A stretch of DNA of 64,000 bases, taken from NCBI GenBank assembly GCA_003280135.1, contig QCFW01000006.1, positions 1 through 64,000 of the forward strand. Reading direction: 5' to 3'. The notes under the pieces are model-generated. The model was not told the origin of the DNA. It saw only the letters and a list, made by a program, of their open reading frames with translations, and ran no database searches. The first letter of the stretch is position 1, and every line of letters begins with the position of its first letter. Positions 46,323 through 50,021 of the stretch are shown here, one piece after another. This DNA comes from Prochlorococcus sp. AG-363-N16 (GTDB lineage Bacteria; Cyanobacteriota; Cyanobacteriia; PCC-6307; Cyanobiaceae). A program made the translations under genes and the position numbers.

Positions 46323-47519
46323 TTAATTACGCCACCAATCTGTATTTAAGTGATCTTCCAGTTTCCTGGCTTCCCAGTAAGATTGTTTATTAACTAGAGT
46401 TAGTAATATCTTTCTATATTTATTGAGCCTTGATCGACATTGTTTTAATTTGAAATTTTCAAACTCTAATTCAAAGGGGGTAATATAAATACATGTTACA
46501 TCAACTATATTATTAGATGAACTCTCGTTGATTGGTAGACGCAGTCTTACTATGTTTGGAGGCGAGTCCATTGTGTTCATATGACCTGAAACAATAGAAT
46601 CCAATAGACTAACAGGAACAAAATTTGTGATTAATCCACTTTTAAGTAGCTCAATATTTATAACATGTGAAAGTTTTCCTAATCTTTTTTGAAGAGAGTT
46701 CTCTAATGAATTAAGCCAATCATATAGTTGATGAGGTGTCTTTGGAAAAGTAGAATCAATCTCTTCTTGAGAATCTTCTAGATTATTGTATTTAGAATTA
46801 TTAGAATTATTAGAGTTATTAGAATTATTAGAGTTATTAGAATTATTAGAGTTATTAGAATTTATTGAAAATTGATTTTTAGAAAGTGTCTTTTGTGCAA
46901 GTTGAAAAATTGAGCTCAAAATGTCTCTATGGTTGTCTTCTGTATCTAATCTATCTTCATTATTAATGTCAATAATTTCTTCGTTAATTCCATAATCTAT
47001 ATCTTCATTATGTGTGATCTTTTCAGAATCATATTCAATATCACTAGTAAATAAGTCATTATCTATATTATCCCAGTGATTAACATTAATCTTGTTTTCT
47101 AATGGTAATGACATATCTAAAGTTATAGATTTTTTATTGCCAGGATCAATAAATCTGTCTTCTTCAGCGTTATCATTTTTGTCTATAAGTTGTTTAGCCT
47201 TTTCTACAAATAAGTCTTGTTCGAGTTCAATGCTTTTTGCATATTCAAGAAGTTGTTCAATAGTAAGAAGTGATGTTGTTTCGGACAGAATATTAAATAT
47301 TTTTTCTTGAAATATTTTCTGTTTACTTTTCTTGGGCAAATCATCTATATCTTGTTTCGTAATAGTAATCAACTTTAAAATAGACTTCTGAGTAGAGTTT
47401 GATATTATTTCTCTTAATACCTGAAGATAAAGAGCGTAAGCCTTATATAGGTCCAGGCGAAAATTATCTCCTTGAGATTCTAAAAGATCTAACTGGTTCT
47501 GAGGTTGCAATGAAGTCAA
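46323..47519 (-). CDS. Hypothetical protein with Asn/Ser repeat linker
   Basis: This 398-residue protein is not assigned to a family. Residues 1-110 are helical, with LYKAYALYLQVLREII and LTIEQLLEYAKSIE. Residues 130-215 are highly acidic and rich in Asp, Asn and Ile. A low-complexity NNS repeat covers about residues 220-243. The C-terminal 140 residues form a more ordered domain (PHQLYDWLNSLENSLQKRLGKLSHVIN ... EARKLEDHLNTDWW, quoted in parts). This end looks conserved, while the middle looks like a flexible spacer. The gene lies between recG and tsf on their strand, 12 bases after tsf. Confidence 0.65.
   Translation of the reverse strand: MTSLQPQNQLDLLESQGDNFRLDLYKAYALYLQVLREIISNSTQKSILKLITITKQDIDDLPKKSKQKIFQEKIFNILSETTSLLTIEQLLEYAKSIELEQDLFVEKAKQLIDKNDNAEEDRFIDPGNKKSITLDMSLPLENKINVNHWDNIDNDLFTSDIEYDSEKITHNEDIDYGINEEIIDINNEDRLDTEDNHRDILSSIFQLAQKTLSKNQFSINSNNSNNSNNSNNSNNSNNSNNSKYNNLEDSQEEIDSTFPKTPHQLYDWLNSLENSLQKRLGKLSHVINIELLKSGLITNFVPVSLLDSIVSGHMNTMDSPPNIVRLRLPINESSSNNIVDVTCIYITPFELEFENFKLKQCRSRLNKYRKILLTLVNKQSYWEARKLEDHLNTDWWRN
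46792..46863. repeat. Short tandem repeat, 9-bp unit
   Basis: Eight 9-bp units of TTAGAATTA or TTAGAGTTA (last one TTAGAATTT) run head to tail. From the second unit they mostly alternate, giving an 18-bp higher period. They lie in frame in the hypothetical gene and encode Asn-Asn-Ser. Confidence 0.9.
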
Positions 47520-47531
47520 GTAATCGATTAA

Positions 47532-48188
47532 TTAATTTGATGAAATAGAGGCTACCTCTTCAGCAAAATCTACTTGATCTACTTCTATTCCCTCACCCAA
47601 GGTGTATCGTGTAAACCTTCTAACCTTTACGTTTTCTCCAATCTTTCCAGCTACTTGCTTTATTAATTCTTGAAGGGTAACAGAACTATCTTTTATAAAA
47701 GGTTGTTCTAACAATGCTAATTCCTTTAATCTCTTACCAATTCTTCCATCAACTATTTTTGATTTAATCTGATCAGGTTTACCTTGTAAATCATCTCTAC
47801 CCATCTCTATCTTCCTTTCCCTATCAACAATATCATCAGGGATATCATCTACAGAAACATATTCAACATTTGGACAAGCGGCTACCTGCATTGCAACATC
47901 TCTAAGTAGACCTTTAAAGATATCTCCTCTGGCAACAAAATCAGTCTCGCAATTAATTTCCAAGAGTACTCCTACTCTCGCCCCTGTATGGATATAACTA
48001 CCTATTGAGCCTTCAGCTGCTACACGACCTAATTTTTTCTCTGCACTTGCAATTCCTTTTTGCCTTAACCATTCAATAGCCTTATCCAGATCTGCTGAAG
48101 TTTCGGATAATGCTTTCTTACAATCCATCATGCCAGCTCCTGTTTTGTCCCTTAGATCCTTAACAAGTTTGGCTGTAATTTCAGGCAT
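47532..48188 (-). CDS. tsf: Tsf, elongation factor Ts
   Basis: EF-Ts recycles EF-Tu by releasing GDP. The 218-residue length matches the short cyanobacterial form. The N-terminal UBA-like domain has [20 protein letters not shown] near residue 8 and [16 protein letters not shown]. The nucleotide-exchange core has the [13 protein letters not shown] motif near residue 78. It follows rpsB by 56 bases on the same strand, the usual rpsB-tsf operon, so it would share the rpsB leader control. No terminator is evident between the two. Confidence 0.96.
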
Positions 48189-48244: not shown

Positions 48245-48967
48245 CTAAGAATACCTATTCCTATTACCTGAGCGTTGATCATTAGAACCTTGTCTGCCTT
48301 CGTTTATGGCATCGGCTAATCGTCCAAGCACTAATTGGACTGATCTAACAGCATCATCATTACAAGGAATTGGAACTTCACAAAGATCTGGATCACAATT
48401 GGTGTCCAACATAGAAACAAGTGGTATGTCTAATTTACGGGCCTCCAGAACAGCATTAGACTCTCTTCTTTGATCAACCAAGACGACAACATCAGGAAGT
48501 CTTTTCATGCCTTTTAACCCACCAAGATATTTTTGGAGACGCTCTAATTCGTGACGTAATACAGAAGCCTCTTTTTTAGGTCTCATTGCTATTGCCCCAC
48601 TTGATTCCATTCTTTCGAGATCCTTAAGGCGATCGATACGAGCCTTCATAGTCGTCCAGTTAGTTAGCATTCCTCCCAACCATCTTTGATTGACATAAGC
48701 AGCTCCGCATCTATTTGCCTCTTGAGCTACTACCTCGGAAGCTTGTTTCTTAGTACCGACAAATAAGAATCTCTTACCACTTTTTGCGGCATTTCTAGTC
48801 CACTTGTATGCAGTATTCATGCATAAAGCTGTTTTAACTAGGTCAATAATATGTACACCATTTCTCGCGCAATATATATAGCGAGACATTTTAGGGTTCC
48901 ATCTTCTAGTCTGATGCCCAAAGTGGGCACCAGCTTCCATCATCTCAGAAAGAGTTACAACAGCCAT
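48245..48967 (-). CDS. rpsB: Ribosomal protein S2
   Basis: S2 binds late to the small ribosomal subunit and is needed for S1 binding in bacteria that have it. The 240-residue protein has [19 protein letters not shown] near residue 9, [24 protein letters not shown] and [12 protein letters not shown] near residue 92. [16 protein letters not shown] near residue 160 and [13 protein letters not shown] follow. The C-terminus is a short basic tail. It begins the rpsB-tsf operon. Its start codon is preceded by a GGAGG too far away for normal use and by a pseudoknot-forming leader, which suggests autogenous control. Confidence 0.97.
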
Positions 48968-48975
48968 TTGTTAGG

Positions 48976-49047
48976 GTTTCGGGTTAGCCTCCACCTGATA
49001 GGAAAGAAAAAAGTTTGAAAATTTTTCTCACCCGAAACATTCAGGTG
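48976..49047 (-). promoter_or_regulatory. rpsB leader pseudoknot, probable S2 autoregulatory element
   Basis: Reading the minus strand, CACCTGA (49047-49041) can pair with TCAGGTG (48998-48992). GTTTCGGGT (49038-49030) can pair with ACCCGAAAC (48984-48976). The two stems, of 7 and 9 perfect bp, interleave as an H-type pseudoknot. The second stem ends eight bases before the rpsB ATG. A GGAGG (48992-48988) lies at the junction. E. coli rpsB-tsf is known to be repressed by S2 through a structured leader; its use here is inference. Confidence 0.7.
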
Positions 49048-49088
49048 TGCGGTTTAATTTACCTAAACAATTTATCAAAAAAGATGCA

Positions 49089-50021
49089 TTAATGTATACC
49101 TTTTTTTGCGGCTTCTTTAAAAATCTCTCTAACACAGATTAGATTTAGAGGTATTCTTAGGATTTCATTAGCAATAGAAGCATACCCATTTTTGACTAAT
49201 AGATCTAAGACTGGTTTAATTCTTGATGTATTAATAATTCCGAAAATCGTCAAAATCTCCCATAGTATTCTGTGAACAAAGGTAAACTGAATCATTAGTC
49301 TAACCCTTAATGAAGGATGTTTTAAAAAGAATGTTAGACCCATCTTTGCTCTTTCCTTTTCGACCCTAATTAAGTGTGGGATTTGTTCTGTAGAAAAAGC
49401 AGGATGCCAATGATAACCTTTCGCCTTGGGACATTTAATTAATTTAACACCCATGAGCCTCAATCTCTCACCCAGTTCAAGATCTTCCCAGCCATACAAT
49501 CTAAATTCTGGATCAAACAAGCCAGAAGCCTTCAACACATTCTTATCTATAGCTACATTACCTGTTGCAAAATATGCCCAAGAAATATCACTAAATTTAT
49601 ATGGCTCGATCGTAGGATTTTCAAAATTTGCTGTGTTAATTACTGAACCATAAGTAAAGCAAAGTTTATTATTACTAGTTTTCCATGAATCAATTAAAAA
49701 CTTAGCATGGTAATTAAGAAACGATTCTGTAACAACTAGGTCACTATCTATAAAAACTATTACATCACCATTGGCTCTAGAGACGCCATTATTTCTTGCT
49801 GCACCTGCTCCAAGATGATTTTGCAATATTAATTCTACATGTGGAAATTCATCTTTGTTTTTAGATAAATATTCCTTAGTACCATCAGTAGATCCATCAT
49901 CAACAACAATTACTTCATAACGATCTATGCGAGATGATAGTTGCTGCTTTTCTAACGCATATAAACACTTCTTTAGAATAGGAAAGCGATTATAAGTTGG
50001 TATAACTACACTGATAAACAT
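49089..50021 (-). CDS. Family 2 glycosyltransferase
   Basis: The 310-residue protein is a GT-A fold sugar transferase. The N-terminus has VVIPTYNRFPILKKCL, the first nucleotide-binding Asp is in VVDDGSTDGTKEYL near residue 40, and the metal site is in VIVFIDSDLVVT near residue 90. The acceptor-side ED pair is in YGWEDLELGERLRLMG near residue 180. No transmembrane anchor stands out before the C-terminal hydrophobic helices. The likely role is in outer polysaccharide or LPS synthesis; sugar and acceptor are unknown. It stands alone near rpsB, and no glycan cluster surrounds it. Confidence 0.85.
   Translation of the reverse strand: MFISVVIPTYNRFPILKKCLYALEKQQLSSRIDRYEVIVVDDGSTDGTKEYLSKNKDEFPHVELILQNHLGAGAARNNGVSRANGDVIVFIDSDLVVTESFLNYHAKFLIDSWKTSNNKLCFTYGSVINTANFENPTIEPYKFSDISWAYFATGNVAIDKNVLKASGLFDPEFRLYGWEDLELGERLRLMGVKLIKCPKAKGYHWHPAFSTEQIPHLIRVEKERAKMGLTFFLKHPSLRVRLMIQFTFVHRILWEILTIFGIINTSRIKPVLDLLVKNGYASIANEILRIPLNLICVREIFKEAAKKGIH

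Follow-up and report, generated by a model that had tools for sequence, protein, structure and literature searches.

A putative S2 operator in the rpsB leader of Prochlorococcus and other Cyanobiaceae has a nine-base-pair pseudoknot and no Shine-Dalgarno sequence before the start codon

In Escherichia coli, excess ribosomal protein S2, helped by S1, represses translation of rpsB-tsf, and the ribosome binding site lies outside the operator (reviewed in PMC10931766). An 'rpsB motif' was described by Meyer et al. 2009 (PMC2704228), which consists of P1, a variable P2 and P3, and a pseudoknot connecting the P2/P3 junction to a 3' extension of P1. Its carriers are Alpha- and Gammaproteobacteria, a few others, Firmicutes and, explicitly, Cyanobacteria, in which P2 is short or absent; the cyanobacterial and proteobacterial forms were aligned as one motif, and a few of the motifs sit directly before the EF-Ts gene (PMC2704228). 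In a published scan of the untranslated regions of Prochlorococcus MED4 against Rfam no conserved elements were reported (PMC3898218). Prochlorococcus leans little on Shine-Dalgarno (SD) pairing and may use S1 (PMC5607370). The results below put the rpsB leader of picocyanobacteria on firm comparative ground, an element that Rfam scans overlook.

The window analyzed here comprises 64,000 nt of Prochlorococcus sp. AG-363-N16 (GCA_003280135.1, contig QCFW01000006.1, positions 1-64,000, given in forward-strand numbering). On its minus strand lie rpsB (48245-48967; Pfam PF00318, Ribosomal_S2, E = 2.6e-91), encoding S2 as the presumed repressor and the regulated product, with its ATG at 48967-48965, and as second gene after it tsf, encoding elongation factor Ts (47532-48188; Pfam PF00889, E = 6.1e-34). 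All elements of the leader are likewise on the minus strand. Two interleaved helices, P1 of 7 bp and PK of 9 bp, were read from the sequence at 49047-48976 in the order P1a-PKa-P1b-PKb. In P1, which was also recovered in the cyanobacterial alignment, CACCTGA (49041-49047) forms seven perfect pairs with TCAGGTG (48992-48998). In PK, GTTTCGGGT (49030-49038), an arm supported by the relatives and by covariation as well, forms nine perfect pairs with ACCCGAAAC (48976-48984). The 31-nt stretch between the PK 5' arm and the P1 3' arm contains an AT-rich 7-bp hairpin in the predicted fold, AGAAAAA (49022-49028) pairing with TTTTTCT (49011-49005), which is the counterpart of P3 in the rpsB motif. The whole leader reads CACCTGA-AT-GTTTCGGGT-31 nt-TCAGGTG-GAGGCTA-ACCCGAAAC-CCTAACAA-ATG, with CCTAACAA (48968-48975) as an 8-nt spacer between knot and start codon. 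According to the rules for H-type pseudoknots both helices should be able to form at once, with a loop 1 (L1) of 2 nt across PK and a loop 3 (L3) of 7 nt across P1; as L1 has only 2 nt, there is no P2. Two perfect interleaved stems of 7 and 9 bp, ending eight bases before the rpsB ATG, had been proposed in an earlier note on this DNA, and were confirmed with exact coordinates.

To follow the element through the cyanobacteria, rpsB was located in 55 of 60 relatives and then in wider family and phylum samples. The element was present at the same place and with the same layout in 72 of 72 Cyanobiaceae leaders and in 44 of 44 leaders of Cyanobacteriia outside that family (116 in total). Membership of the family and of the class was read from sequence and genome size. 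Stems were parsed in 71 Cyanobiaceae and 42 other cyanobacterial leaders by an anchored stem finder that demands GGGT/ACCC; in the per-pair PK counts this requirement predetermines the four core pairs and leaves pairs 5-9 free. The finder skipped leader L019, with a G-U pair in PK, and misread P1 of leader L051; these two leaders, one per group, were read by eye. In an alignment of 53 cyanobacterial leaders 96.1% of 874 cells were paired, and 11 pairs showed two-sided changes compared to 6.0 ± 1.0 in shuffles, with none of 500 shuffles equalling any observed measure. When partners were slid by one column, pairing was at most 52% of cells (about 50%). All eight aligned pairs of P1 changed on both sides (e.g. 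CG:27, UA:22; 97.2% of cells paired), P1 being one pair longer in most relatives than the 7 bp of AG-363-N16. Across the class three of the nine PK pairs varied on both sides, two of these via a single sequence each, and the GGGT/ACCC core was nearly invariant. Within the Cyanobiaceae PK was almost invariant, with G-U changes only, so the covariation of PK comes from the class at large. The alignment of rpsB upstream regions that had been suggested as a check hence bore out both stems, with compensating changes in all pairs of P1 and in three pairs of PK. Leader L051 (of genome G055) appears to carry an insertion between P1 and PK, possibly the P2 hairpin that the phylum otherwise lacks.

Located directly upstream of rpsB, with a covarying P1, a pseudoknot, and P3 in the absence of P2, the element is, as judged from these sequence features, a cyanobacterial member of the known 'rpsB motif' (Rfam t44 in enterobacteria). 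It has in common with the motif of Meyer et al. 2009 the place before rpsB, P1, the absent P2, P3, the pseudoknot layout and the cyanobacterial carriers. It differs from the text of Meyer et al. 2009 in that PK in Cyanobiaceae is an invariant 9 bp, whereas about 5 bp are predicted there outside Firmicutes, and in the lack of an SD between knot and AUG. With the E. coli rpsB-tsf leader (t44/tff, RF00127) it shares the series CACAC-P1-GGGGT-P3-P1'-GGAGGC-UAACCCC; E. coli, however, has a 5-bp PK and AGAGG downstream of the knot, while Cyanobiaceae have a 9-bp PK and no SD there. A covariance model (R1) was built from the cyanobacterial alignment only, its structure including P1 and not PK. In the AG-363-N16 genome the rpsB leader was the only credible match of R1 (63.7 bits). 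R1 also found the E. coli leader L055 (positions 576-668; E = 1.2e-5, 24.4 bits). Of 13 further enterobacterial rpsB leaders in the sample it matched 12, 11 at E < 0.01 and one at E = 0.32. The enterobacterial operators were aligned at the exact place, with CACAC, GTGGAGGC and UAACCC in common. That a model made from cyanobacteria alone finds the E. coli operator shows that the two elements are homologous. This direct comparison covers enterobacteria, the only group obtained from a contig scan seeded with E. coli. Among the non-photosynthetic relatives within the phylum, R1 matched one of 20 leaders (L116), and some others resemble remnants. L116, L128, L130 and L131 of this group seem to have the same leader, with a knot of the GGGGT/ACCCC type. 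The earlier note had pointed to S2 control of the E. coli rpsB-tsf leader, in agreement with the review cited above (PMC10931766), and its reading of a pseudoknotted rpsB leader, with an E. coli-like S2 operator as a plausible function, stands. Its further suggestions, a new lineage for this control or an independent solution, were not borne out, as motif and pseudoknot in Cyanobacteria had already been given by Meyer et al. 2009 (PMC2704228) and the E. coli operator was recovered by R1.

The Cyanobiaceae leaders form a distinct version. PK comprises 9 bp in 71 of 71 parsed leaders, compared to 5-10 bp, mostly 7-8, elsewhere. All 71 have G-C as pair 9 and U-A as pair 8; in the other cyanobacteria roughly one third of the leaders pair at position 9 and about 60% at position 8. 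A 4-nt SD match past the PK core was found in none of the 71 Cyanobiaceae leaders; in 42 of 42 other cyanobacteria an SD follows PK, mostly AGGAG or GGAG and often abutting it. An SD outside the operator and downstream of the knot, as is typical of E. coli, is hence missing in the family of AG-363-N16. The loss of the SD is lineage-wide and not peculiar to rpsB, since an SD-like 4-mer preceded tsf in 0 of 29 Cyanobiaceae and in 10 of 17 other cyanobacteria, and was found for 6 of 55 genes of the window, with 3.6 expected by chance. These counts agree with the weak reliance of Prochlorococcus on SD pairing described before (PMC5607370). The AG-363-N16 genome has an intact anti-SD end of the 16S rRNA and encodes S1-domain proteins. 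The SD-less form with a 9-bp PK has apparently not been described previously. Set beside the SD-dependent form of other cyanobacteria, it offers a natural contrast within one ribosomal-protein operator that can be used to study initiation control in organisms with little SD pairing.

We regard it as probable that the element, a homologue of the E. coli rpsB leader, is an S2-responsive translational operator, which takes an SD-less form in Cyanobiaceae. From the analogy with E. coli we infer S2-dependent repression in AG-363-N16. S2 in excess of free 30S subunits, probably together with S1 as in E. coli, would bind and stabilize the pseudoknot, in which the PK helix joins the P1/P3 junction to the 3' extension of P1. 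The knot stops 8 nt short of the AUG, which would place it inside the footprint of the initiating 30S subunit, and its stabilization would block initiation at rpsB and lower tsf via the shared message. An unoccupied knot would be opened by the initiating ribosome. In the Cyanobiaceae PK has grown to a constant 9 bp, and initiation would proceed with no SD after the knot, presumably by way of S1 or of a start region free of structure, as has been proposed for Prochlorococcus in general. Since the ribosome binding site of E. coli is outside the operator, repression in the Cyanobiaceae may take another route. A more far-reaching version of this reading is that the S2 operator was rebuilt in Cyanobiaceae as an SD-independent switch, where the SD was lost and a fixed 9-bp PK that ends within the 30S footprint then became the main gate for rpsB-tsf, with S1 and S2 opening and closing it; we put this forward tentatively and consider it rather doubtful.

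The leader also contains a GGAGG (48988-48992, minus strand), which the earlier note had placed within or beside the stems as a ribosome site that folding could mask or reposition. The placement was correct, as the first G is the final base of P1 and the remaining bases lie in loop 3; its role as ribosome site is doubtful. GGAGG is common to E. coli (GTGGAGGC in L055) and the SD-bearing cyanobacteria, which keep it beside a separate downstream SD. It probably does not serve as the main ribosome site, because it lies 20 nt from the ATG, has its first base in P1 and is replaced by GGTGG in 5 of 71 Cyanobiaceae leaders, including members of two genera (g30, g75) that also hold GGAGG members. It is an ancestral operator element rather than a normally spaced ribosome site. 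Alternatively, the pseudoknot could act as a start aid in Cyanobiaceae, with the loop-3 GGAGG serving as SD and the folded PK arm shortening the 20-nt spacer to the AUG. Such a function would fit with the lack of any other SD in all 71 leaders, with a PK fixed at 9 bp in Cyanobiaceae only and with the complementarity of GGAGG to the intact anti-SD. However, GGAGG is no less conserved in E. coli and in leaders with a genuine downstream SD, its first G is tied up in P1, GGTGG takes its place in the five leaders mentioned, twice beside GGAGG congeners, and SD use is weak in the lineage anyway. We therefore judge a start aid to be improbable.

The S2 operator reading was further compared with a leader that acts on transcription or mRNA stability, by attenuation or RNase shielding, or that senses S1 or EF-Ts instead of S2. 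S1 could be the ligand, or the knot could affect mRNA stability only; S1 is required alongside S2 in E. coli (PMC10931766), and a few rpsB motifs are situated directly before the EF-Ts gene (PMC2704228). On the other hand, no terminator-like hairpin followed by a T run was apparent by eye between knot and ATG, and the E. coli data favor an action of S2 on translation (PMC10931766). These possibilities are likewise judged improbable.

An Rfam search had been proposed as a check as well, and proved uninformative in cyanobacteria. Rfam t44 (RF00127) had no match in the 64-kb window even at E = 10, and none of 78 genomes of the phylum scored above the cut-off, so the rpsB leader of AG-363-N16 is outside the t44 family as modelled. 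The E. coli rpsB leader (annotated as tff/T44) scored 83.5 bits; two cyanobacterial leaders were hit at the right place below threshold (28.2 and 25.7 bits, gathering cut-off 44 bits). The cyanobacterial leaders are missed because the Rfam model is too narrow, enterobacterial in scope. Rfam scans of the window, whether at gathering cut-offs or by E-value, yielded nothing of use; other weak matches, among them rliD and, on the opposite strand, L20-leader, were well below the cut-off and were dismissed as AT-rich chance hits. The failure of t44 to pass its cut-off in any of the 78 genomes and a PK that exceeds the E. coli length of 5 bp might suggest that the cyanobacterial regulator arose by convergence and has no kinship with the S2 operator of proteobacteria. 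This is contradicted by the R1 matches to the enterobacterial operators, with their shared motifs at the exact place, and by the joint alignment of both forms in Meyer et al. 2009 (PMC2704228), which leaves convergence very improbable. Taken alone, the single rpsB leader sequence is suggestive only: when the 113-nt leader was shuffled with dinucleotides preserved, 119 of 20,000 versions (0.6%) contained interleaved perfect stems of 7 and 9 bp, as did 18 of 6,390 sliding windows (0.3%, windows over the rpsB leader site included), and the nested folding energy of the leader was ordinary (z = -0.95). The significance of the element comes from its conservation and covariation, and although equal stems arise in shuffles and the energy is unremarkable, functionless chance stems are refuted by its occurrence in all 116 Cyanobacteriia leaders with compensatory changes in both P1 and PK.

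Upstream of P1, an extended -10 box, TGATAAATT (49069-49077, minus strand), was predicted from the consensus TGnTAnnnT. This consensus was found within 55 nt of P1 in 71 of 71 Cyanobiaceae leaders (5.3 expected) and in 36 of 41 other cyanobacteria (1.9 expected), and its distance to P1 in Cyanobiaceae was near-constant (22 ± 2 nt, range 18-24 nt). The transcript likely starts about 6-8 nt further on, near 49062 and upstream of both stems, which would probably give a 5' leader of about 95 nt. From the position of the box upstream of P1, a start downstream of 49030, which according to the earlier note would speak against the element, looks unlikely. The predicted -10 box follows the end of a gene for a family 2 glycosyltransferase (49089-50021, minus strand) at a distance of about a dozen nt, so that the -35 region of rpsB would fall inside the glycosyltransferase coding sequence. 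At the other end of the locus, downstream of tsf, the open reading frame 47519-46323 (minus strand) encodes an unannotated protein of 398 aa with no Pfam match. At 46792-46862 a 9-bp repeat, present in about eight copies, encodes Asn-Ser-Asn runs, which is odd for a streamlined genome.
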